Shown here in pieces: positions 3,720 through 57,882 of a stretch of DNA of 64,000 bases. A program made the translations under genes and the position numbers. The stretch comes from a virus. The notes beneath the pieces were generated by a model, which was given only the letters and a program-made list of their open reading frames with translations, did no database searches and was not told the origin of the DNA. Each line of letters opens with the position of its first letter. The stretch's first letter is position 1. The stretch is taken from positions 119,145-183,144 of the IMG/VR virus record IMGVR_UViG_3300043410_001892. One strand, written 5' to 3'.

Positions 3720-3974
3720 CTATATACCAGTTGGCGCAGGTGTTGAATACATTGTATGAATAAAATTTAATTCAACTTCTTGTTCTAAGATATGAGCTTC
3801 ACTACTCTTCCGAAGTTCATTAATCTGTCTAAGCGATAATCTTGTTTTTCTCGTATCAGAACGATGAACTAACGATTTATCGTTATCAGAATTATACCTC
3901 ATATCACTGGCAACATGCTTTGAGTTTGGGTCGTTATAAAAAAGTTCTCTAAGTATCATAGTATTATTTATCAC
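3720..3974 (-). CDS. Small conserved-position protein between portal and core genes
   Basis: An 84-codon frame starting with GTG at 3974, or a 79-residue protein from ATG 3959 (MILRELFYNDPNSKH). Neither start has a good ribosome site; the GTG immediately follows the portal stop, which suggests translational coupling. The protein is charged and helical (LSLRQINELRKSSEAHILEQEVEL) with no membrane segment. Its location is that of T4 gene 67, an 80-residue prohead core protein, and the size fits, but no sequence match is recognised. Its N-terminus (M-I-L-R-E-L) is similar to the capsid-targeting-like starts further right, without a clear L-x-E cleavage site. Confidence 0.7.
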   Translation of the reverse strand: MINNTMILRELFYNDPNSKHVASDMRYNSDNDKSLVHRSDTRKTRLSLRQINELRKSSEAHILEQEVELNFIHTMYSTPAPTGI

Positions 3975-5716
3975 ATTGGAGGCGGTGCCATACCCGGTGC
4001 AGCAGGTGGCGGCATAGCTCCTGGCATACCGCCAGTCATTGGATCAGGTGGCATAACCCCTGGAGGTGCTGCTAAGTTACTTGCAGAGTTCATATCTTGT
4101 TCCATACCAGCAGCTGATAGCCCAGCTCCGCGTAATTCTCCTGCTGCATCTGTGTGAGTTGGCTGGCCTTTACCTTGTTCTTCACCCCATAGACGTTCAT
4201 TTTCTGCCATTTCGTCTTCAGTTAATCCTAAAAATCTTTTTAATGCAAAGCGTTTACTCATATAAGGCACTGCTTGAATAGTATTAAAGGTATTAATTCT
4301 TTCGGAATCTAAACTTGCTTGACGTGCGCTTGCGAAGTTCATTGGTGGGTTAAATTGTAATTCAAATAAATTTGAATCAATATTTGCACCGCGCGAGTAC
4401 ATGTACATTTTAAATTCATTTGTAAATACATCTGTGATTAAACTTTGCAATCTTTCGCAGTATTTGTTAAATCTTAACTCTTGAATATACGCTGTACCAA
4501 CACGCCCGTCTTGAAAACTTGATTGACTATCGTCTGCACCAGTTGGTAAGTAGCTACTTGGAATACGTAAGCCACGGAATAACTTGTTTGTAAAGAATTT
4601 TAAGTCATCAATTTCACCTAAATTAGTTCCGCCCGGTAATGTTTCTACTTTAGAACCGCGTCCTTCTGCAGTTTGTGGGAAGAAATAGTCTTCATTTATA
4701 CTTAAAGGATTGTAAGCACTGTCAATAACGTTCTGTCCACCGCCACTTTGGCTTGGAATTCTACGTTGATGTATTTCATTTTTAACTCTTTCTACAAAGG
4801 CCATAGCTAAATGGCTTGGCATATTACCAACATCGATATGAAATACGCGTCTTTCTGGAGCTCTTTGTATACGATATATTAAAATAGCATCTTCTAATAG
4901 TTCTTTTTGCTTATAAACTTTAAAAATATTCTCTAATAAGCTGTTACCAAACGGATAATTGTTATCTAACCCTTCAGAAAGTGATAAATGAACAACATGT
5001 TCTGCATCAACTGCGTGTTCTGTATCGCCTAAACCAAATCTTGAACCTGCTCCTGTATTAGGATATGGACCAGATGCACCATATTGAGCACCAGATGTTC
5101 CCATATAACCTGCACCTGATGTCATTCCACCGCCGGATTGTTTTGGATTTATGTTAGGTGTAATGCGTGTTGCTACGAGATTTTCAAAGTTAGGAGCTAA
5201 ATCTTTAATGATATACTGTACAGGCTTCTTTCCTTCGCTTTCATTTACGATTACAGTTTCAATTTTACTAGGATCAATCCAGTTCCATTTTTGATTTTCA
5301 GGATCTCTAATGAAAAAAGCATCACCGTATTTGAATACATTTCGAACAATCCTAAAGATTTTAGTATCAAAATTCTGTAATTTGTTCCATTGTTGTAGAT
5401 ATTCACCTAAAATTCTAATTTCTGAATTAGTTCCTCGATTATTCCAACGAACTGTAAATGGACTTTTACCATCTTTTAACTTTTGTGTACAAAATTCAGC
5501 GAGAATATCAAGTGCTGCGTTGATTTCAGGATCACTATCCATTACTTCGTACTGTTGATAACGATCAACACGATTAGGGCTTCCGGTATAAACATCTGGC
5601 AAGTAACTTGAATAATTTTTTCTTGCAGGTCCTGCTTTTGATGTTAAACCTAGTGTAGGAGTAGTATTAAGTTGTGTTGTACTGGATATTTCAGTGAAAT
5701 GTTTACGCCAGGCCAT
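3971..5716 (-). CDS. 20: Portal vertex protein gp20
   Basis: A 581-residue portal protein of the T4 gp20 family, forming the dodecamer through which DNA enters and leaves the head and on which the prohead is initiated. Diagnostic stretches include VDRYQQYEVMDSDPEINAAL near residue 52, LPGGTNLGEIDDLKFFTNKL (about 365) and RVGTAYIQELRFNKYCERL (about 405). The C-terminal 50 residues are Pro/Met/Gly-rich and look disordered. Length is slightly above T4 gp20 (524). ATG 5716 is preceded by TAGGAG. Stop overlaps the next small gene's GTG. It heads the head-assembly operon. Confidence 0.97.
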   Translation of the reverse strand: MAWRKHFTEISSTTQLNTTPTLGLTSKAGPARKNYSSYLPDVYTGSPNRVDRYQQYEVMDSDPEINAALDILAEFCTQKLKDGKSPFTVRWNNRGTNSEIRILGEYLQQWNKLQNFDTKIFRIVRNVFKYGDAFFIRDPENQKWNWIDPSKIETVIVNESEGKKPVQYIIKDLAPNFENLVATRITPNINPKQSGGGMTSGAGYMGTSGAQYGASGPYPNTGAGSRFGLGDTEHAVDAEHVVHLSLSEGLDNNYPFGNSLLENIFKVYKQKELLEDAILIYRIQRAPERRVFHIDVGNMPSHLAMAFVERVKNEIHQRRIPSQSGGGQNVIDSAYNPLSINEDYFFPQTAEGRGSKVETLPGGTNLGEIDDLKFFTNKLFRGLRIPSSYLPTGADDSQSSFQDGRVGTAYIQELRFNKYCERLQSLITDVFTNEFKMYMYSRGANIDSNLFELQFNPPMNFASARQASLDSERINTFNTIQAVPYMSKRFALKRFLGLTEDEMAENERLWGEEQGKGQPTHTDAAGELRGAGLSAAGMEQDMNSASNLAAPPGVMPPDPMTGGMPGAMPPPAAPGMAPPPM

Positions 5717-5766: not shown

Positions 5767-8700
5767 TTAATAGAACCTATTAGACATATTATTCGTAGCT
5801 TTCACTTGTTTTTGACTGCTTGAACTAATAGATTCAGTATGTGAAGCCATTTGTGACATTGTTTTATTTAACTGTATCACTGCATCGTATATCTCTTTTA
5901 GGCTAACTGTATGAGATGTTTGTGATGATGCAGGTTTTGCATTTGATTGTTGCTCTGTATGCATTGGCTCCGGTGCATGTACCGGTGCAGGTTTGGTTGT
6001 TAGTTCATGTGTTGACGGTGCAACTTGATTTTGTGTCACATCTTTAATCTGAGCATGTGAACTTTTAACACTTTCAGCATCTTTTCTTGCATTAAACTCT
6101 TGCCAAGACTCTAAACCACCAATATGATGTGGTGCAGGTTTAGCAACACCTGCAGGTTCTGCCGATTTTGCTGATTGTCCTTTAGCTTTATCTTCATTAA
6201 CTATAGATTTCCAAAGATCGTCATGTTTATACAAACCAGAATTTTTTATTTGTTCTCTATATATGTTTGCCGGATCATTTGGGTCTGCTTTTCTTGCTGC
6301 AATAGCCTCTGGTGTATTCTCTGCGGCAAGTTTTGCTGCATTTTCTTCCGGAGTTTCTTGTTTAACATTTTCATACCGTACATTTCCGCGTGTAAACAAT
6401 GGACTATTGTCAGGTTTGAACATATCTCCTATTTTATCAAAGAATCCTTTTGATTCTGTTGGCTGATTTGCTTCAAGTTTTTGTTCATTTTCAACTGGAA
6501 CTGGAGTTTCTTGATTAGGAGCTAATGTTTCTGATACTTTTGCAGATTCATCTTGTAATTTTGCTGCAGTAACATCTTTATTAGTTGCACTTTCAGCAAA
6601 TTTATCACCAAGACTGTTAAATGACGCAGAATAGTCTGGAGATTTAAATGTTTCCATTGCATTTGTTAGCTTTTCAGTATTATCCTCTGGTTTAACAACA
6701 TTAGTAGAAACAGATTCTGTAAGTTTATCACTTAAATTGTTAAATGACTTATCTAAAGATGATTCTTTTTTCTCTTCTGGTTTTTCTGTGCTAATTTCTT
6801 TAAAGTCTAAACCGGTTGACAGTACATCTTTCTCTGCAGTTTTAATTTGAGCTTTTTCTTCAGGTGGTTTTTCTGTTTTCTTTGGTTCAACTATACGTCC
6901 TTCTTCTATATCACGTTGTTTTTTCTCTGCAGCTAATGTCAGTTCACGTTGTCTAGCGGCTGCAGCAGTTTCTGCATCATATTTTGGCTTAAACGCTGCA
7001 TACTGTGCTTCAAATATTGGTAGATCATGAACTGCATCTTCATCATTTCTACCTTTTAGCTCGGCAATTTTGTCAATAAAGAATTTGTTTTCACCTTCTC
7101 TTACTTTACGTTTAATTGTTTCAGTAGATTGTATACCAGTTTCTAACTCTTTCATTTCTGCATTAGTAAACTCATCGCGAGGATCTTTTAATCCAGCTTC
7201 GGCATCTTTTGATGTACCTGCAGGAGGTGGAGGTGTGTTTTCTGCAGTCTTAATAGTTGCGGTATCAGTAGTTGTAGGCGGTGCAGTAGCTGGTAGAGTT
7301 GATTTTGCAGGTTCAGTTGTTGGTGTTGCAGGTTCTGGTTCGCGCGAATAAGTAATTTCTGGTTTATTTCTTTCAGCTATAGCTGCTTGTTCTTTATTTG
7401 CGTTTTCTTGTTGTTTCTTTTTATCTTCTGCAGAGTTATCAGCTTTATTCACAATAGAACTTTTACTTTCTTTAATGTTTCCATCAACATGAAGACCAAT
7501 ATTTTTAAATATTTCCATTAATTGTTCATTAAATTTATCTGTAGCTGGAATAAATGAAATGTTTTTCATTTTATCAGTAACTTCAGACAATCTTAAGACA
7601 ACCTTTTCCATTTGGTCGTTAACACGATTAAATACACGTTCAATATCAGCAGCATTCGAAGTTGACATTGGTTTTATTTGATTAGCAATGTCTGTACCAA
7701 AAGAAGTTGGTAATGGAAAGTTCATTGACCCAGATTTAGACGATGAAGATGTTGAAACTTGCTGAGATAATTGTCTAAACATATCCCTAGGGAACATTTT
7801 TTCAATAAATCTCATCATTTGATCTTCATTTGCAACTATTTCATTACCGTGAAGTAATGCAGGTTCACCTTTTGGATCAAAGTTTGTAAACATATCTTTA
7901 AATCCGCCGCCACCTGACAGGAATTTTTCAAATTCCGGTGTACCACTGGCAAAAATGTGTGGCTCTTCCTTACCAAGAGGTTTAGTTAAATCATTTGGGT
8001 CTCGAATGTTGTTTGATTCGTTTTCTTTTAGTTTAGAACCTTCGTCAAACCGTTTGCGTAAAGAATCTGGAATTATTCCTTTGCCAATATCATTTAATTC
8101 ATTTGTAGCAGCATTTTTTAAACCTTGTAGTTCTTGTTTCCAACCTTCTTGAGATCTATTTCTAAGAAGATTATCAAGTTGCCCATTTTTATTAAGTGCT
8201 TCAATTACTTTGCCACCGTCTCTAGCTAACTCACCAAAGACTGAACTCAATCCGCCAGCTGCTCCTTTTAAATTACGATCAATTTCGTTAATAGTAGTTG
8301 CTAATTTAACTGCTGGATCAGTTATAGGTTCACCAGTAGGCTTTTGTCCTGCAGCTTCTTTACGAGCTTCTTCTTGCATTAACTTAAGAGCTTCGCCGGC
8401 ACCAACATGTGCCTCTGCCATTTTAGCTTCTAATTGTTGAAGACCTGGCGTTTTTACATATTCGTCACCTAATCGATCTGGTACAGAGCCCGCCGGGCCG
8501 CCAATCATACCTAATGTTGATACAGGTTTCTTTTCTAATCCTTCAACATGTTTAGTAATAGCAGTGTCAAACAAATTCTTTAGATTTGCAACATCTTCTG
8601 GACTTTTAGCGTTACGAATAGCGTTTCCTACTCTAACTGCCTCAGCTAACGACCCAGTTGCACCTAATGTTGCGGCAGCTTTAGTACCTTCATCTGTTCG

Positions 8701-9591
8701 AATTGCACCAGTAGCTTGTTCAACGATAACAGTTTTCATTGCTGGACTTGCATTAGATAACTGTGGTAGTATTGCATCTAATGCTTGGCGTTGCATTGGA
8801 TCTAATGAACGCATCATTGCTTGAATTCGTTTATCAGATTTTATTTGTTGCAGTTGTTCTAATTGTTCTTTTTTACCAATACCTGTTATACGTGAATTTT
8901 CGTCAATTGATTCAATTAATTTTTCAGTTGCGTCAATTTGTCGTTGCCGCATTAATGGATCATTAGCATTAAATCCAGGTTGATTCATACTTGCAACATA
9001 CATTGCTTTATTAATCAGTTCTGCACTCATGCCTAATTTTTCAAGTTGAGCAATAATTGGTCTCTGATGCAACTGCTCATTCATTTCTAAGAAATTTTTC
9101 TGAGCTCGATTAACAGTTGAACCTAATGCACCTAATTCAGCAGCACCTTTTTTAACCATTTCGGTGTATTCGTCTTGGGTCATACGAGCACCTTTGATTA
9201 AAGAATCAAATTCTGCTATGTTATTTCCAAATGTTGCACCGTACTCGCTTGCTTTGTTTAAGTTTGAATTAGTTGTAAGGACAGCATCACTAATCTTTTT
9301 ACCAGCGTCGCCAAGAATTTTTCCAAATGCTCCACCATAGTCGGATAATGCTTTATTAAAATTAGTTAATGCGTCTTTAGTAGTTGCAGTACCTGAACCA
9401 AGTTTCTCAAGTGCATCCCCAAGTGTGCTTGCTCCATCGGCAGCCGTGTTAAGTCCTTTCTTAAGCGAATTAAAAGGTGTAAGAGAGAATCCGCCACCAC
9501 CTCCGCCACCACCTCCGGTATTAGAGCCTTTTAATGTTTTATTAAGAGCATCAATCGATTCTCGTAGTCGTACTGTATCTTCATCACTCAT
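5767..9591 (-). CDS. Tail tape-measure protein candidate
   Basis: A 1274-residue protein with a nine-glycine run near residue 26, alternating helical segments (about 40-350), and a long charged Pro/Glu/Lys/Thr-rich, probably extended or coiled C-terminal half (700-1230). No enzyme motif is seen. Length, repetitive helical character and place beside a gp26-like/tail chaperone-like gene suggest the tape measure, the role of gp29 in T4, although sequence identity with gp29 is not apparent. T4 gp29 is about 590 residues, so a longer tail or additional domains would be implied. ATG 9591 is preceded by TAGGAT. A perfect late promoter (TATAAATA, 9645-9638) lies upstream. An alternative is another large internal virion protein. 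Confidence 0.6.
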   Translation of the reverse strand: MSDEDTVRLRESIDALNKTLKGSNTGGGGGGGGGFSLTPFNSLKKGLNTAADGASTLGDALEKLGSGTATTKDALTNFNKALSDYGGAFGKILGDAGKKISDAVLTTNSNLNKASEYGATFGNNIAEFDSLIKGARMTQDEYTEMVKKGAAELGALGSTVNRAQKNFLEMNEQLHQRPIIAQLEKLGMSAELINKAMYVASMNQPGFNANDPLMRQRQIDATEKLIESIDENSRITGIGKKEQLEQLQQIKSDKRIQAMMRSLDPMQRQALDAILPQLSNASPAMKTVIVEQATGAIRTDEGTKAAATLGATGSLAEAVRVGNAIRNAKSPEDVANLKNLFDTAITKHVEGLEKKPVSTLGMIGGPAGSVPDRLGDEYVKTPGLQQLEAKMAEAHVGAGEALKLMQEEARKEAAGQKPTGEPITDPAVKLATTINEIDRNLKGAAGGLSSVFGELARDGGKVIEALNKNGQLDNLLRNRSQEGWKQELQGLKNAATNELNDIGKGIIPDSLRKRFDEGSKLKENESNNIRDPNDLTKPLGKEEPHIFASGTPEFEKFLSGGGGFKDMFTNFDPKGEPALLHGNEIVANEDQMMRFIEKMFPRDMFRQLSQQVSTSSSSKSGSMNFPLPTSFGTDIANQIKPMSTSNAADIERVFNRVNDQMEKVVLRLSEVTDKMKNISFIPATDKFNEQLMEIFKNIGLHVDGNIKESKSSIVNKADNSAEDKKKQQENANKEQAAIAERNKPEITYSREPEPATPTTEPAKSTLPATAPPTTTDTATIKTAENTPPPPAGTSKDAEAGLKDPRDEFTNAEMKELETGIQSTETIKRKVREGENKFFIDKIAELKGRNDEDAVHDLPIFEAQYAAFKPKYDAETAAAARQRELTLAAEKKQRDIEEGRIVEPKKTEKPPEEKAQIKTAEKDVLSTGLDFKEISTEKPEEKKESSLDKSFNNLSDKLTESVSTNVVKPEDNTEKLTNAMETFKSPDYSASFNSLGDKFAESATNKDVTAAKLQDESAKVSETLAPNQETPVPVENEQKLEANQPTESKGFFDKIGDMFKPDNSPLFTRGNVRYENVKQETPEENAAKLAAENTPEAIAARKADPNDPANIYREQIKNSGLYKHDDLWKSIVNEDKAKGQSAKSAEPAGVAKPAPHHIGGLESWQEFNARKDAESVKSSHAQIKDVTQNQVAPSTHELTTKPAPVHAPEPMHTEQQSNAKPASSQTSHTVSLKEIYDAVIQLNKTMSQMASHTESISSSSQKQVKATNNMSNRFY

Positions 9592-9656: not shown

Positions 9657-10487
9657 ATGGAACAAAACCCTTTACAAGAATTTTTTAGACAACCAAAAAT
9701 TTATATTTCATTGCCATCAAAAGGAATTTACAATGAACTTGGATCAATTAGTGGAGATCCAAGTCATTTACCAGTGTACGGTATGACAGGAATGGATGAA
9801 ATTATGATGAAAACACCTGATGCACTATTAAATGGTGAAAGCACAGTGTTATTAATCGAAAGTTGCTGCCCATCAATTAAAGATGCATGGCAAGTAAATG
9901 CATTGGATACAGATTTACTGTTAACTGCTATTCGAATTGCAACATTTGGAAATAATTTAGAAATTATGCATACATGTTCAAACCCAGAATGTGAATCTGA
10001 AAACGAATATGACGTTGACTTAGGTACAGTTATTGATCATTTCAATAAATGCAAATATGAAAATCAAATAAAAATTGGCGGGTTAACTATTAGACTGCAA
10101 CCGTTAACATATCGCCAAACTACTGATTTTGCATTAAAGAATTTTCAATTACAACAAAAATTATCAAATTCTAAATCATTAGATGACGAAAAACAAAAAG
10201 AAATAGTTGCTCAATTATTTAACGATCTAAGATCTATTCAAAATGACATTTATTTTGAAAGCATTGAATCAATTGATACTGGAAAAGTCGTAGTAACTGA
10301 TAGAGATCATATTCGCGATTGGTTATCAAATTCTGAAAAAGATGTATTTAAGAAAATTCGTAATACATTTGATGTTAATAAAGCCAATTGGAAAATTCCA
10401 AATGTAAATGTAAAATGTGATAGTTGTGGAAAAGAAGCTTCATTATCAATTGATTTAGATCAAACTAATTTTTTCGATCCCGCCTAA
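9657..10487 (+). CDS. 26: Baseplate hub protein gp26-like (zero-frame product)
   Basis: A 276-residue protein of the T4 baseplate family that includes gp26 (IYISLPSKGIYN near residue 15, then LPVYGMTGMDEIMMKTPDALLNG). Start chosen at ATG 9657 because GGAG precedes it; an in-frame ATG at 9612 lies upstream of the promoter. Four cysteines in two pairs (C107/C112 and C254/C257, the latter CDSC) could bind zinc. The gene ends in a TTTTTTC run in frame (10469-10475) followed after 6 nt by a nested stem-loop, and the -1 frame stays open for 77 further codons. T4 gp26 has about 208 residues. Opposite orientation to the tape-measure candidate, with overlapping late promoters. It may act as a tail assembly chaperone in G/GT style; that is inference. 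Confidence 0.85.
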   Translation: MEQNPLQEFFRQPKIYISLPSKGIYNELGSISGDPSHLPVYGMTGMDEIMMKTPDALLNGESTVLLIESCCPSIKDAWQVNALDTDLLLTAIRIATFGNNLEIMHTCSNPECESENEYDVDLGTVIDHFNKCKYENQIKIGGLTIRLQPLTYRQTTDFALKNFQLQQKLSNSKSLDDEKQKEIVAQLFNDLRSIQNDIYFESIESIDTGKVVVTDRDHIRDWLSNSEKDVFKKIRNTFDVNKANWKIPNVNVKCDSCGKEASLSIDLDQTNFFDPA

Positions 10488-10708
10488 TTGGGTTATCTCC
10501 TTCTGATATTAGAGAATATCTAATTAGGCTTGATAATAGTGCAAAACGTATTAAGCATGAATTATTTAGAATTTGCTGGTATATGAGAGGTGGTGTTTCG
10601 ATACATCAGCTGATGCATGTGTTGAGTCACGAAGACCGATCAATTATGTACGATATTATCAAAGATAACATTGAATTAACAAAAATATCTAAAATGCCAT
10701 TGTTATAA
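9657..10708 (+). CDS. gp26-like -1 frameshift fusion product (350 aa)
   Basis: Slipping one base back at T-TTT-TTC (10469-10475) joins the first 273 codons to a -1 frame that runs from 10475 to the TAA at 10706-10708. The extension reads RSRLIGLSPSDIREYLIRLD, then a basic helix, then RICWYMRGGVSIHQLMHVLS and ends TKISKMPLL. It looks like genuine protein: no internal stop, good amphipathic helices, and it ends one base before the next gene's stop at 10709. The extension has no ATG near its beginning and no ribosome site, so independent translation is unlikely, although an upstream ATT or TTG could in principle be used. Many long-tailed phages make a tail chaperone pair by -1 frameshifting just before the tape-measure gene. 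Confidence 0.72.
10469..10529 (+). promoter_or_regulatory. Programmed -1 frameshift signal: slippery heptamer plus stem-loop
   Basis: Heptamer TTTTTTC at 10469-10475 is in the correct X-XXY-YYZ phase for the gp26-like frame. After a 6-nt spacer, GCCTAATT (10482-10489) pairs perfectly with AATTAGGC (10522-10529). Inside it GATATT (10505-10510) pairs with AATATC (10515-10520) around an AGAG loop. The zero-frame stop TAA (10485-10487) lies within the stem. Confidence 0.72.
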
Positions 10709-11452
10709 TTAGTAAATTAAAAATCCATTCTTATCTCTATGTAACCCTTGTGGAGTATACTCATAATCTGGATCAGCAATTCTTGGAGTCATGTAATCAT
10801 TTTGTGAATTTGGTTTTGTAGGATCAACTGGTGTAGGCGCAGGGGTTGCTGTTTGAGTAGCCTGTGGTGCTGGTTGATCAGGCACTTGTTTTTTATCTTG
10901 ATTAACAGCTTCTTGAATTGTATTATGTAACCAATCAATAGCAATTGTTCCGTATCTACCCATGTCTTTAAGAATACTTACTGATATAAGTGATGCAAGT
11001 GCCTCTGTACCTTCTTTGGTACGTAATTGCTGCATTAAATATATTCTCGCACCTTGGCTTAATATTTTGTACATACTAGCAATTAGTGGACCTACAACTG
11101 GGATAATACTAATAAATCTTATGAATACTACATCTGTTAGAAATGAACCAACTGCAGCTACTAAGCCAACTCCAAGCTTGGCCATCATCTCACCTGCTTT
11201 TGCAGATCGATATTCATTAAATTGTTGTTGTGTTGCGACCCCTGATTTCAATGCTTCATCTGCTTGATTCATTTGAGTAAGATAATCAATTACAGGAGAT
11301 AATAACGATGCTAATCCTAACCAACCAAGAGCTGTTTTAAAAGAGTTAAAGCCAGCTTTAACTCTAGATCCTCCATTAATATTAATAGTGGGCGGAGCAT
11401 CTGCTTCATTTAAATGTGTGTGGCGTTTAGCTGTTATCTCTCTGACTTTCAT
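10709..11452 (-). CDS. Membrane-associated protein with capsid-targeting-like N-terminus
   Basis: A 247-residue protein of unknown family. Residues 38-58 and about 88-131 form hydrophobic helices (GVGLVAAVGSFLTDVVFIRF and IISIIPVVGPLIASMYKIL-like stretches), so it probably inserts into a membrane; the C-terminus is a Pro/Thr/Ala/Gln linker followed by a polar tail. The first 16 residues, MKVREITAKRHTHLNE, followed by Ala, resemble T4 capsid-targeting sequences (MKTYQEFIAE, then Ala) cut by gp21 after L/I-x-E. If so it would be packaged in the head and ejected with DNA. An AATAAATA late promoter (11506-11499) and ATAAAAGGAT ribosome site precede ATG 11452. Function otherwise unknown. Confidence 0.75.
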   Translation of the reverse strand: MKVREITAKRHTHLNEADAPPTININGGSRVKAGFNSFKTALGWLGLASLLSPVIDYLTQMNQADEALKSGVATQQQFNEYRSAKAGEMMAKLGVGLVAAVGSFLTDVVFIRFISIIPVVGPLIASMYKILSQGARIYLMQQLRTKEGTEALASLISVSILKDMGRYGTIAIDWLHNTIQEAVNQDKKQVPDQPAPQATQTATPAPTPVDPTKPNSQNDYMTPRIADPDYEYTPQGLHRDKNGFLIY

Positions 11453-12666: not shown

Positions 12667-12711
12667 CTGCTATTATTGCCAAAGGTAAATATACACAATA
12701 TAGGAACACAT

Positions 12712-13710
12712 ATGAGAGTTATAGATATTATGTTAAATGAAGAGGTAAAAGGATATGCAGTAGCAGTTGAAAATGCTCACGCTTGGATTGAACGACTTAA
12801 ACAATTTATGAACCCCAACGATCCTCAACGACCATTTGTATTAAGAAAAAATGTTAATGTTGTATATGAGTTAACAGCTGACAAATATGATGCTAATCAA
12901 CGTAACGAGCAAGAGATAATATTAGAAGCATATGACTTAATTGCTGCCGCAATTCAAACAGGTGATCATTTGCAAATGTCAGCAGCAACAACAAGACTTA
13001 GTCGAAAACTTAAAGAATATTCTAATCGAGAAGTTACTAGAATTAGAAAAGAGTCAGGAGTTCGTACAACAAAGAAAGCAGACCGAATTTCATTACCTGA
13101 TCAAATAGCAAATGTAATTGATTTTATTAATTCTCCAAATAATCGACGATTAGATAATCGATATACGTATGAGAGATCATTTATGTCGCTTGCAGATAAA
13201 CTGACATTAGAAAAATGGATTAAAGATACTTATAAGACCGATAAACTAAAACTACAAGCACTTGTTAATTGGTTGAAAGATAAAGAAACTCGAACAGCAG
13301 CACCAAAAGAACTGGAAAACACTCACGGTGAATTGCCAGAGGATTTTGATCCACAAAATCCTCTGCATGTGTATTGGAAAAATATAGTAGATACAACAAG
13401 ATGGAGAGGCGATAATGTGGAAAATAGTAAAACACAGTATACAATGTCTTATAAAGAGCTATGGCAGATTATAACTGAACAAGATTGGAAGTGCTATTTA
13501 ACTAATATTCCAATGTTAGGGATTACAAGCCATGAAAATTCTATAAGCATAGATAGAAAAGATTCAACTGTAGGTTATATTTCTGGTAATGTTGCATTCT
13601 GTTGTTATCGAGCAAATATAATAAAAGGAACGTTAACAGTTAACGAATTAGTTGCAGTGTGTAAACAGATTCTAATACATAAAAATATAATTTCAAAGGA
13701 ATTAAAATGA
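12712..13710 (+). CDS. HNH-type nuclease-like protein 1, capsid-targeting-like N-terminus
   Basis: ATG 12712 is chosen since AGGA lies 7 nt upstream; the longer frame opens only with TTG at 12676. The 332-residue product begins MRVIDIMLNE then E, resembling a capsid-targeting peptide with an L-x-E cleavage site. The middle is charged and helical with no recognised domain. The C-terminal 80 residues carry an HNH-like pattern: WKCYLTNIPM, SISIDRKDSTVGYISGNVAF and YRANIIKG. The His usually placed before the I-D of such enzymes is replaced (S-I-D), so catalysis is uncertain. It overlaps the following HNH gene by 4 bp (ATGA). It could be a homing-type endonuclease, but the N-terminus argues for a packaged, ejected protein. 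Confidence 0.75.
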   Translation: MRVIDIMLNEEVKGYAVAVENAHAWIERLKQFMNPNDPQRPFVLRKNVNVVYELTADKYDANQRNEQEIILEAYDLIAAAIQTGDHLQMSAATTRLSRKLKEYSNREVTRIRKESGVRTTKKADRISLPDQIANVIDFINSPNNRRLDNRYTYERSFMSLADKLTLEKWIKDTYKTDKLKLQALVNWLKDKETRTAAPKELENTHGELPEDFDPQNPLHVYWKNIVDTTRWRGDNVENSKTQYTMSYKELWQIITEQDWKCYLTNIPMLGITSHENSISIDRKDSTVGYISGNVAFCCYRANIIKGTLTVNELVAVCKQILIHKNIISKELK

Positions 13711-14651
13711 AAGCAACCGAAATTTTAGAACAGCTAGATAATCGAGGTAGGTACCCAGGTGAAGCAGCAACAAATGGACTAACAATACACACCAGAGTAG
13801 AAAATATAATGAATCAATCAAAAAAATTGCTGAATTTATATAGACCGTATCTAGTTCGTGGAGAAATTAAAAATTTGGTACAAATATATAAAATTGCTTC
13901 TAAAGAATTTAAAAACCCAACAGATTTAGATTATGCAACAATATTAGTAACATCAAACGAACTTAGACCGTATGTTAAACGACTTGCTAGTAAAATGAAA
14001 GAAGCCATAAAAAATCCATCACCTGAAGAGTTTAAATTAGCTTCTATAAGTAATCATAAAGTGTTTGGAGGATGGCCAATTGAAGATATTAAATATGATT
14101 TGAATAGTATAGCAAGAACTCGACCTGATTTAAGCGATGCAGTAAATAACTTAATACAAGATGTTGAGGGGTATAATCAAAATAAGAGGCTTCGTGGTGA
14201 AGTAACATTTAATACAGATTATTCTGATAACATTGAAGATGCAGTAACTCGACGATATAATAATTCAAGAGTAAGAAACAAAAAAGGAAAATTAACAAAT
14301 CCTAAACGAAAAAAAATAACTATATCTACTAATTATGCAATTGAAATTGCTGCAAATCAACATTACACATGTGCGTTATCAGGAATTCCAATGACAGCAG
14401 TTCAAGGTCCAAGTCAACTTAGTATTGATCGAATTAGCTCTAAACATGGATATCATCGCGGCAATGTTCAATTTTTATTAGCTCGAGTTAATATGATGAA
14501 AGGTAATTTATCTGAGAATAAATTTTTAGATTGGTGTTTGCAGATATACAAAAACAATTCTAATATACCGGTTACTAACTCTGATTTAGCTGCGGCACTT
14601 GCTAGACCAGTATTGTCTAATAACAATACTACTTCAAACACAGATCCTTAA
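13707..14651 (+). CDS. HNH-type nuclease-like protein 2, capsid-targeting-like N-terminus
   Basis: A 314-residue protein starting MKATEILEQLDNRG at ATG 13707, overlapping the previous stop (ATGA) with AAGGA as ribosome site, so the two genes are co-translated. The C-terminal region repeats the partner's layout: HYTCALSGIPM, then LSIDRISSKHGYHRGNVQFL and RVNMMKGNLSENKF, an HNH/treble-clef pattern with N in GNV and in VNMMK. The central region differs from the partner. ILE at residues 6-8 could be a gp21-type cleavage site. The 3' end overlaps the convergent PD-(D/E)XK gene by 23 bp. Likely a diverged duplicate of protein 1. Confidence 0.78.
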   Translation: MKATEILEQLDNRGRYPGEAATNGLTIHTRVENIMNQSKKLLNLYRPYLVRGEIKNLVQIYKIASKEFKNPTDLDYATILVTSNELRPYVKRLASKMKEAIKNPSPEEFKLASISNHKVFGGWPIEDIKYDLNSIARTRPDLSDAVNNLIQDVEGYNQNKRLRGEVTFNTDYSDNIEDAVTRRYNNSRVRNKKGKLTNPKRKKITISTNYAIEIAANQHYTCALSGIPMTAVQGPSQLSIDRISSKHGYHRGNVQFLLARVNMMKGNLSENKFLDWCLQIYKNNSNIPVTNSDLAAALARPVLSNNNTTSNTDP

Positions 14652-15156: not shown

Positions 15157-15480
15157 TTAATTTTTATGTCTAATTTTTAATTTATTTATTGGTTCAAGTA
15201 TGCCAGCTTCTTCTTTTTGAGCACGTTCTTTAATCATAGCAATTGCTCGTTTACTTGGAATTTTTGGAGAGAAATGTGTGTATCTCCAATCTTGTACCAC
15301 TAATCTTTGATCGGTACAAAGATTAGTTAGTTGTATTCCAATCTTTTTTAACAACATTAATTCTTTTCGTAAATCAACACAAGTTTGTGAATTTTGTATT
15401 GTAACCCAGTTATTATGAGCTATAAAATAGTCATTAAATACTTTCATTATTTCATCGTGTAATTCTTCATTTGGTAACAT
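15157..15480 (-). CDS. Small hypothetical protein
   Basis: A 107-residue helical, basic protein (LHDEIMKVFNDYFIAHNNWV; RKELMLLKKIGIQLTNLCTD; C-terminal KLKIRHKN). No family recognised and no membrane segment. ATG 15480 overlaps the TAA of the 687-residue gene (TAATG) and a GGAGGT ribosome site lies inside that gene's last codons, so it is in the same operon, followed by the PD-(D/E)XK gene. Confidence 0.75.
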   Translation of the reverse strand: MLPNEELHDEIMKVFNDYFIAHNNWVTIQNSQTCVDLRKELMLLKKIGIQLTNLCTDQRLVVQDWRYTHFSPKIPSKRAIAMIKERAQKEEAGILEPINKLKIRHKN

Positions 15481-17543
15481 TATTGACCTCCGTAAGCTAA
15501 TTCTCTTAATTTTTCTTCTTCTTCATTTGTTAGCAATTTTAGGTTTATAAAATTAAATGCTGTTGGATTAGATTTAATTGCAGCTTTACATAACTGGAAA
15601 TTTTTGAAATTATCGTTTATCCATTTTAAGTTATAACCGTCTATTGCTACTGATTGATGCGCGAGTTGTTCGTACTGATCAGCTGTAACATAGCCGGCAT
15701 CTATTGGCAAAGATTCACCATCGGCAACAGGAGTAATATGTTGTAATGAAGCTCCGTTGGCGATTGCTTTTGATGCAATTTTAAATGTTTGAATACCACC
15801 TTTAAAGAAGTTATGATCAATCAATACATCAAGAGTATTAAGACTTCCTCTAGCACCAGCTGCAGACATACATAAGTTAAATGCTTGTTCATCTGTAAAA
15901 CTATATCGATTGATAAATTCGTCTATTAAAAATGGAGCTGTTTTTAATGCAATAATTGCTAATTCGTATAATTCGTCCGGTTTAACAACATCATCGAGTG
16001 ACCAACTAGTTCCACTTGGATCAATTATGTTACCGTCAACTGACGCAGCAGTTTTTAACTGTTCAAAGGTTAGATAGTCATCTACTAAATCACCTCTCAA
16101 GTATTGTACTATATGAGGGTTAGATTCAACTGCTAATCCTAGTAACTTCCCTATATCTTGATGATTTAGTATACCTATATTTTCGATATCTGCAAATGCA
16201 TAGCTAGGATCTGATGAATTTGCTACTATTTTTACACAGATATCTAAATCGATAAATTGAAGATCAAATGAATCGAGATCCCAATTATTTCCAGATTCGA
16301 ATGCAGCTTTAACTAACTCTTTGTAGTGTTTATAATGAGACGGAATATGCTCAAATATATCGTAACGTCGATTGTTATAAACTGCTTCTTTTAGTATTTC
16401 AAAATCATTTCTAACTTTTGCACTTGCAAAATTAAGTAGTTCTGGATATGCTCCAATACGACGTCCAACACGTTGTTTGTAATTTTGGATAGTGTCAGGT
16501 GCATAAATTATCAAATCGTTATTTTGTTCAATTGCGTTTTCCCAAGCGTCATTAGACAGATCAATATCTCCTTCTTCGGTTATTAGTGAACCTATACCGG
16601 GAGATTTATCAAGTGCAACTGATCTAAATCTTTCATTAGCTAACACGTTCTTTGGCGCTCTTAAGAAGTCAATTGGATATTTTTCAATTTGATCGTCAAT
16701 TAGTTTAGGTTTAGTAGCTATGATTTGATTGAGCATATTATTTGGTAAATCAAATACAGAAAAGTCAGTTGCTGGTAACCATGAGTCTTCTCCGATTCCA
16801 TTTACCACTGGACTTAATAATAATGCTAATATATCTGGATAGAATTTGCTACTAGGTTTGCTATTTTTAGGACCTTTTGTTTGATATAACTCATGAGTAT
16901 TTGGATTCCATTCAAATGTTAGCATAGGTTGCGGAGTTGAAGTTCTTAAACTTAACAAGTTATTTTCAGGGAATTGACAAGTACCGCAATGTCCCATAAA
17001 CTTTGATTCTGGGTTGTGTGAATTATAAGGTAAATGCCACCATGTGTTGTTAGTGCTTGGTACTTGCAATACAGGATGGTCGCCTTCTAATATTTCTATT
17101 GGTTTTGCGATTTTTCTTGCAGCTTCATTATCTTTAAATATTTGTTCTTCTGCTTTACCAAATTCTGCTATTACGTTGGTTACATTTGTACCTGGGCGAA
17201 TTGCATTTACTACATCTATTATTCTTTTATTTGTAGCAAATTCAGTAGCAAGCCAATGTGATAGGGAATATTCAACTGATCCTAATGAATCAAATATAGT
17301 TGGGTCATTAAGCCATGCAGGTGGGAGTAAATTTGCTAACGCCTCTTGATTTCTATTTAAACCAGCTTCTAATATACCTAAATACCAAAGTATAGCTTGG
17401 TTTTTTTTCAAATAAGTTGCAGCCCATTGAACTTTCTGATCAATTGCTGCAGCGTCATCAGGAAACGAGGTTTTAAGTTTGTTAACCTTGCTTTGATAAT
17501 TTTCAAATAAATTGATTGATTCGTATAATTCTCTTAATCGCAT
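15480..17543 (-). CDS. 687-aa protein with MGHCG/SLR motif and repeat-like C-terminus
   Basis: Function not recognised. The N-terminus MRLRELYESINLFE, then N, resembles a capsid-targeting peptide with L-x-E cleavage. Around residues 185-240 is KFMGHCGTCQFPENNLLSLR, then PMLTFEW and YQTKGPKNSKPS. This order (HCG..., SLR, TFE, Q-KG-N-KP) resembles a motif seen in PcfJ-like and other large phage proteins, from memory only. The C-terminal half contains short helical units (NDFEILKEAVYNNRRYDIFE; KHYKELVKAAFESGNNWDLD) reminiscent of DUF4116-type repeats. RBS AGGA precedes ATG 17543. A degenerate late octamer (ACTAAATA) lies upstream. It is separated from gp46 by a hairpin, heading its own three-gene operon. 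Confidence 0.72.
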   Translation of the reverse strand: MRLRELYESINLFENYQSKVNKLKTSFPDDAAAIDQKVQWAATYLKKNQAILWYLGILEAGLNRNQEALANLLPPAWLNDPTIFDSLGSVEYSLSHWLATEFATNKRIIDVVNAIRPGTNVTNVIAEFGKAEEQIFKDNEAARKIAKPIEILEGDHPVLQVPSTNNTWWHLPYNSHNPESKFMGHCGTCQFPENNLLSLRTSTPQPMLTFEWNPNTHELYQTKGPKNSKPSSKFYPDILALLLSPVVNGIGEDSWLPATDFSVFDLPNNMLNQIIATKPKLIDDQIEKYPIDFLRAPKNVLANERFRSVALDKSPGIGSLITEEGDIDLSNDAWENAIEQNNDLIIYAPDTIQNYKQRVGRRIGAYPELLNFASAKVRNDFEILKEAVYNNRRYDIFEHIPSHYKHYKELVKAAFESGNNWDLDSFDLQFIDLDICVKIVANSSDPSYAFADIENIGILNHQDIGKLLGLAVESNPHIVQYLRGDLVDDYLTFEQLKTAASVDGNIIDPSGTSWSLDDVVKPDELYELAIIALKTAPFLIDEFINRYSFTDEQAFNLCMSAAGARGSLNTLDVLIDHNFFKGGIQTFKIASKAIANGASLQHITPVADGESLPIDAGYVTADQYEQLAHQSVAIDGYNLKWINDNFKNFQLCKAAIKSNPTAFNFINLKLLTNEEEEKLRELAYGGQ

Positions 17544-56773: not shown

Positions 56774-57565
56774 TTAGTGTTTATAAAAATTAAATAAATG
56801 TTGCCACCATTTAACTTCTTCTTTAAATGCAGAAAGAGCTTGTTTCTCTTCAATGACAACAGGTTCTGGTGGTTTAGGTTTTACAGGTTCCTGATAAACA
56901 AACTCATTTACCATTGGAAATACTGCGGAAATTGCTTGCGCACATGCTACAGCAACTAATTTGTGTTCAAGCTGTGTATCAACGTTACTGCGCACTTGTA
57001 TGTAGTGAATCCATGAGCGCAACGTCCCGTTAACATATACACGACTCTTAGTATTACCTTCTGGTAGAACGACACGAGCTTGTTCTTTAGCAATACCTTT
57101 ACTAATTGCCCATGCATATTGTACTTTTGCTGCTTCAATAAGATCTTGTTGTCTAAGTTTCCATTCATTATTAATTGCCTCTTCTTCAGCAGTATTAACT
57201 GTAATAGAGTTTTGACGATTCTTAGGATCTTGGAATCTTGCTTCGCGTATTTCAAAAGACAAGTCGTCTGTTGGGTCTGCATAACGTTGACTAAACTCTT
57301 GAAATCTAAATGAAGCGTGACGTAATAATTGACGAGCAATATCACGTGTGGTATTGATTTCTAAACATACATTAACCATTTCAAGTGGTGACCAATGTTT
57401 ATGTTTAATTAAGTAATTGATTAATTTTTCTGAAGTTTCTGTATTAAGTTGATTTGACGGGTTACTTACTCTAGCACAAAACGCAATGAGTTCTTGTGCA
57501 TCAGTAATTCCTAATTCGGCAAATTCTTCAGTTGGTTGAGAATATGATACTAATTTAATTGTCAT
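56774..57565 (-). CDS. thyX: Flavin-dependent thymidylate synthase ThyX
   Basis: A 263-residue enzyme converting dUMP to dTMP with FAD, NADPH and methylene-tetrahydrofolate. The ThyX motif is at residues 82-95 (RHASFRFQEFSQRY), with substrate-binding HWSPLEM before it and LRSWIHYIQVRSN after it. The C-terminal ~40 residues (KPKPPEPVVIEEKQ and a helical tail) extend beyond the usual core. T4 itself carries the unrelated ThyA-type td; ThyX is common in marine phages. ATG 57565 overlaps the upstream stop by 4 bp. Confidence 0.96.
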   Translation of the reverse strand: MTIKLVSYSQPTEEFAELGITDAQELIAFCARVSNPSNQLNTETSEKLINYLIKHKHWSPLEMVNVCLEINTTRDIARQLLRHASFRFQEFSQRYADPTDDLSFEIREARFQDPKNRQNSITVNTAEEEAINNEWKLRQQDLIEAAKVQYAWAISKGIAKEQARVVLPEGNTKSRVYVNGTLRSWIHYIQVRSNVDTQLEHKLVAVACAQAISAVFPMVNEFVYQEPVKPKPPEPVVIEEKQALSAFKEEVKWWQHLFNFYKH

Positions 57566-57882
57566 AGTTTTCTTTTTTTTAAAAAGTTTTTAGTTAATTT
57601 TTCGATATCTTTTCTAACTCGCACAGCATCGAGTTTAATATCAACATCTTCTACTCTGTTTTCATATTGGTTGAGTATTTCATCAAGTTGTGTTTGAAAT
57701 AATGTCCAACCATTTTTTTTAATTTGATTTGTTACCTTTATTTCCCAAGATTTAGTATCTTTAAAATTAATAATAACTGAATAGATATATTGTAGAGGTA
57801 TCACATTAAATGATACCTCATCAAATATTTCAGGCCAATATGAACGTACTTCCTTAGGAAGCAGCTTGTTCGGTTTTAGCAA
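57562..57882 (-). CDS. Small conserved-type hypothetical protein
   Basis: A 106-residue protein, MLKPNKLLPKEVRSYWPEIF at its start, followed by a beta segment and a helical, basic C-terminus. No function recognised. It overlaps the 3' end of the upstream gene by 29 bp in another frame and ThyX by 4 bp, so all are in one operon. Confidence 0.78.
   Translation of the reverse strand: MLKPNKLLPKEVRSYWPEIFDEVSFNVIPLQYIYSVIINFKDTKSWEIKVTNQIKKNGWTLFQTQLDEILNQYENRVEDVDIKLDAVRVRKDIEKLTKNFLKKRKL

Follow-up and report, generated by a model that had tools for sequence, protein, structure and literature searches.

A review of bacteriophage T4 counts both gp26 and gp51 among the hub assembly chaperones and describes gp51 as required yet absent from the final particle (PMC3004832). 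Both proteins match the Pfam family PF12322, and gp51 has about 50 additional C-terminal residues. T4 gp26 ends in ...EFFELL, encoded by non-slippery codons (G TTC TTT). Vladimirov, Gautam & Davidson (2022, Virology 566:9-15) reportedly found frameshifting to be conserved in several T4-like groups, with T4 using genes 26 and 51. The same study is cited in PMC10885494 for some T4-like phages having short and fused long TAC genes instead of frameshifting, and in PMC12846349 for poly-T slippery sequences in T4-like TAC-N genes. Papers on gp26 and gp51 of other families were discarded as concerning unrelated proteins that bear the same numbers.

The stretch of viral DNA analysed here, from a jumbo phage, comprises 64 kb in its full length (the window) and carries a gp26-like gene with the following features:

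9657..10487, plus strand: gp26-like gene, short form (TAC-N-like), 276 aa; ATG at 9657, TAA at 10485-10487
10469..10475, plus strand: slippery heptamer T_TTT_TTC, in phase with the frame from ATG 9657 to TAA 10485-10487
10476..10481, plus strand: spacer of 6 nt, read from the sequence
10482..10529, plus strand: stem-loop of 12 bp, 10482-10493 pairing with 10518-10529; starts 6 nt after the heptamer
10485..10487, plus strand: 0-frame stop TAA within the 5' arm of the stem, read from the sequence
10469..10708, plus strand: -1 frame extension (TAC-C / gp51-tail-like), 79 codons from the heptamer, 77 new residues, TAA at 10706-10708

The original prediction of a programmed frameshift had named the in-phase TTTTTTC, the 6-nt spacer and an 8-bp stem. 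All three are present, the stem in fact folding as 12 bp with the 8-bp stem GCCTAATT/AATTAGGC (10482-10489/10522-10529) within it. Also confirmed is the -1 frame, open for 77 new residues to 10708 and ending one base before the next gene, which lies on the minus strand and ends at 10709. The predicted long form has 350 aa.

The gp26-like gene and its neighbourhood

By comparison with protein families, homology of the short form to T4 gp26/gp51 is established: it matches T4_baseplate (PF12322, the T4 gp26/gp51 family) at 1.7e-14 and the PHROG 150 baseplate hub family at 1.7e-15. Since both T4 proteins are listed as hub assembly chaperones (PMC3004832), this homology supports the link between the gp26 family and a chaperone role that had originally been suggested. 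Structures were predicted with environmental viral loci as alignment rows. The AlphaFold2 model of the short form reached a pLDDT of 91.4 and matched a T4-like baseplate hub assembly protein, itself a predicted structure, in BFVD (E 3.6e-21), and the extension was modelled as helical (pLDDT 89.6). A fold search among solved (PDB) structures retrieved nothing for the short form and no chaperone match for either the short-form or the extension model, and a lambda-type chaperone identity was dropped. The gp26-like gene had no match among the Pfam TAC families, the extension gave nothing significant against Pfam and PHROG, and a near-identity DNA search among named phages was likewise negative. 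The 372-kb virus record, which may be incomplete, holds one PF12322 copy, as would be expected if one gene yields both forms.

No tape-measure gene comes directly after the gp26-like gene in the window. Upstream and divergent lies a gene for a 1274-aa protein (5767-9591, minus strand), between a portal-like gene (3971-5716) and gp26. It has no family match in Pfam or PHROG, and it holds the place of the structural protein that adjoins gp26 in 121Q, CBB and PA5oct. The protein may be the tape measure or else a rapidly evolving component of the virion; as a tape measure it found no convincing match. Further downstream, two adjacent related-looking proteins (12676-14651, plus strand) share an HNH-endonuclease-like C-terminal stretch, with no Pfam or PADLOC match, and a 687-aa protein (15480-17543, minus strand) contains DUF4116 repeats (Pfam 3e-14).

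Conservation of the heptamer, the -1 frame and the stem

Relatives were gathered from IMG/VR and from named phages. The conserved set takes in the isolated jumbo phages Atu_ph07, Phosso, CBB, 121Q and PA5oct, whose gp26 shares only 25-29% protein identity with that of the window. Two loci stood outside the 94 intact ones, one at a contig end and one (L057:3001-3870) with an internal stop, TAA, in the gp26 frame. The latter retains both heptamer and extension, and its stop reflects either a sequencing error or a decayed gene.

The site is established by comparison of the loci: TTTTTTC is identical and in phase in all 94 intact homologous loci, 3-12 nt upstream of the stop. The terminal FF is coded T_TTT_TTC in 93 of 93 cases, as opposed to none of 23 FF pairs elsewhere in the same genes, where the favoured Phe codon is TTT (755 vs 170). 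The final gp26 codons are among the gene's most synonymously constrained. Beyond this lineage, the heptamer ending gp26 in other T4-like phages is TTTTTTC in P-SSM5, LG08, phiAS5 and S13, TTTTTTT in VmeM-32 and TTTTTTG in RL38J1. The Pseudomonas phage Cygsa01 (L104:2072-2982) also has a -1 frame after gp26, with an overlapping ATG but no classical heptamer; this phage may use coupling instead of frameshifting. The window was also screened for heptamers at most 15 nt from the stop of a frame of at least 60 codons, with 60 or more open codons required in the -1 frame as well. Two sites passed, the one at 10469 and a pair of overlapping genes near 57.58 kb on the minus strand, the latter being rejected as a frameshift site for its resemblance to an ordinary gene overlap. 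In this pair a short gene with an A-rich terminal run (57562-57882) overlaps a ThyX-like thymidylate synthase gene (56774-57565); it passed the screen with AAAAAAA, but the arrangement resembles the usual ATGA coupling.

Wherever the downstream sequence of an intact locus is complete, its -1 frame is open, over 72-79 codons. As judged from the pattern of stops and substitutions, it is under protein-level selection: all 75 unique 79-codon extensions are free of stops in the -1 frame, compared with averages of 6.8 and 10 stops in the other frames, and differences between close pairs at -1-frame codon positions 1/2/3 number 3621/1821/6302. Homologous -1 frames of the window extension were found in Atu_ph07 and Phosso (E 1e-5 to 2e-5).

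The stem, too, is established by comparison. That of the window folds with an MFE of -20.4 kcal/mol (z -3.4). In 59 homologues, a subset picked for sharing the window's stem layout so that the pairing counts lean towards that layout, 92.7% of the cells of the 12-bp stem are paired and double-sided changes occur at 7 of the 12 pairs. Sliding the partner by 1-3 columns reduced pairing to 18-55%, and none of 500 shuffles reached the observed values. Across 82 distinct loci, folding downstream of the heptamer had a mean z of -3.2, against -0.19 in upstream control windows from the same genes, and the first stem pair of relatives most often lies 5-6 nt past the heptamer. More distant phages have unrelated stems, several beginning at similar spacing, and downstream structure is weak in a few divergent relatives. 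Of the two hairpins originally described, only the outer one is thus a conserved and covarying element. The inner 6-bp hairpin (GATATT/AATATC) exists in the window, in competition with the final pairs of the outer stem, but with 58% of cells paired it does no better than shuffles and was rejected as a conserved element. The check proposed with the original prediction, an alignment of homologues, thereby showed that the heptamer, the -1 frame and the outer stem are all conserved and that synonymous changes are suppressed at the site. Taken together, comparative sequence evidence for programmed frameshifting is very strong.

Probable ribosomal frameshifting and its alternatives

One alternative is that the -1 frame is a gene in its own right, whose product arises by re-initiation or coupling past the gp26 stop and is never fused to gp26. 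Annotations of Phosso, 121Q, CBB, P-SSM5 and phiAS5 do give the frame as a gene of its own, and an ATG overlaps the gp26 stop in Atu_ph07, Phosso and the loci L007/L008, where re-initiation could add a separate product; the overlapping ATG of Cygsa01, which goes without a heptamer, points in the same direction. However, the window and most relatives have no ATG near the beginning of the frame, and still the residues there are conserved. In 62 of 75 extensions the earliest ATG is codon 39, inside the conserved WYMRGG motif, which makes a separate gene start unlikely in most members, although some extensions have TTG or GTG codons before it. An unfused second gene would also leave the invariant heptamer and the frozen FF codons unexplained, and we regard it as highly improbable.

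Even less credit is due to a shift arising in transcription, by slippage of the RNA polymerase on the six-T run. Such a run does exist at the site, but six T and then a C make a short tract for RNA polymerase to slip on efficiently; moreover, the tract keeps its codon phase, is always T_TTT_TTC and never longer in the lineage, and is followed by the covarying stem at ribosomal spacing. The least probable explanation, which can practically be dismissed, is a chance coincidence of TTTTTTC with an open -1 frame in AT-rich DNA. The heptamer by itself is indeed common and not enriched in the window (29 seen vs 33 expected), yet coincidence is refuted by the invariance over 94 diverged loci, the third-position substitution bias and the covariation of the stem.

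By far the best account of the locus is -1 ribosomal frameshifting, by which the gp26-like gene would very probably yield two proteins corresponding to the T4-type tail assembly chaperones TAC-N and TAC-NC. Most ribosomes would terminate at 10485 and produce the 276-aa short form. The 12-bp stem, 6 nt downstream of the heptamer, would pause a fraction of the ribosomes, which could slip back one base on T_TTT_TTC, with tRNA-Phe re-pairing from TTT-TTC to TTT-TTT. The slipped ribosomes would read on to 10708, giving the 350-aa long form with its helical C-terminal domain. By homology, the short form would be TAC-N, that is T4 gp26, and the long form TAC-NC, the equivalent of T4 gp51. Both proteins are expected to act together as chaperones on the tape-measure/hub complex in baseplate and tail assembly.

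Comparison with known systems

The likely correspondence of the extension to gp51 had been overlooked in the original prediction. In a cyanophage and five other T4-like phages, a small "gp51/baseplate hub assembly catalyst" or equivalent frame lies in -1 after gp26. The C-terminal gp51 tails of four two-gene T4-type phages matched the -1 extensions of cyanophage, Aeromonas and Rhizobium phages (hhalign 96.9%, E 1.8e-10), and on these profile data the link between these extensions and the gp51 tail is firm. The longer extension of the window lineage matched the pooled set moderately (hhalign 62%, E 7e-5, 52 columns) and occupies the same position as the gp51 tail after the FF junction. The original statement that frameshifting was undescribed for gp26 is out of date: according to PMC10885494 and PMC12846349, gp26/gp51 of T4-like phages were identified as TAC-N/TAC-NC in 2022, and the locus matches the scheme already assigned to these phages.

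Measured against what these sources give, our finding is a real and well-supported further example of a system described for T4-like viruses. With the general idea having been published in 2022, the gain is one of breadth and of the RNA element, not of principle; the near-invariant site and the covarying stem of the lineage are the only details that may be new. For giant phages, whose annotations routinely overlook the second half or give it as a small gene of its own, the sequence data make a strong case for an assembly switch, and a 96-nt cassette offers a ready assay target.

Among the wider G/GT-type systems, lambda gpG/gpGT (Xu, Hendrix & Duda 2004) likewise use a -1 frameshift at the 3' end of the chaperone gene to make a minor long form. 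In contrast, the window gene has another heptamer and is not immediately upstream of a tape-measure gene, and its protein lacks a Pfam TAC match or a PDB fold match to a solved tail chaperone. The TAC genes of Vandenendeviridae/Andersonviridae (phage Adele, PMC12846349) resemble our locus in that a poly-T -1 site is conserved close to the end of TAC-N and the extension is often annotated as a separate gene, but the reported motif is GTTTTT and the phage families are different ones. Closest are the T4-like TAC-N/TAC-NC proteins (gp26/gp51), which share PF12322, short and long forms and, according to the citing papers, a poly-T site ending the short form. Here the extension of the jumbo lineage is longer and contains WYMRGG. 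In T4 itself the two forms are separate genes, whereas in the jumbo lineage a single gene carries T_TTT_TTC together with a covarying stem. Our results support the view of the T4 gp26/gp51 pair as a two-gene version of a frameshifted gene. Whether the near-invariant T_TTT_TTC, joined in the window lineage by the covarying 12-bp stem, represents an ancestral frameshift element that T4-related jumbo and environmental phages still use, with the two genes of T4 as a later replacement, we would put at even chances.
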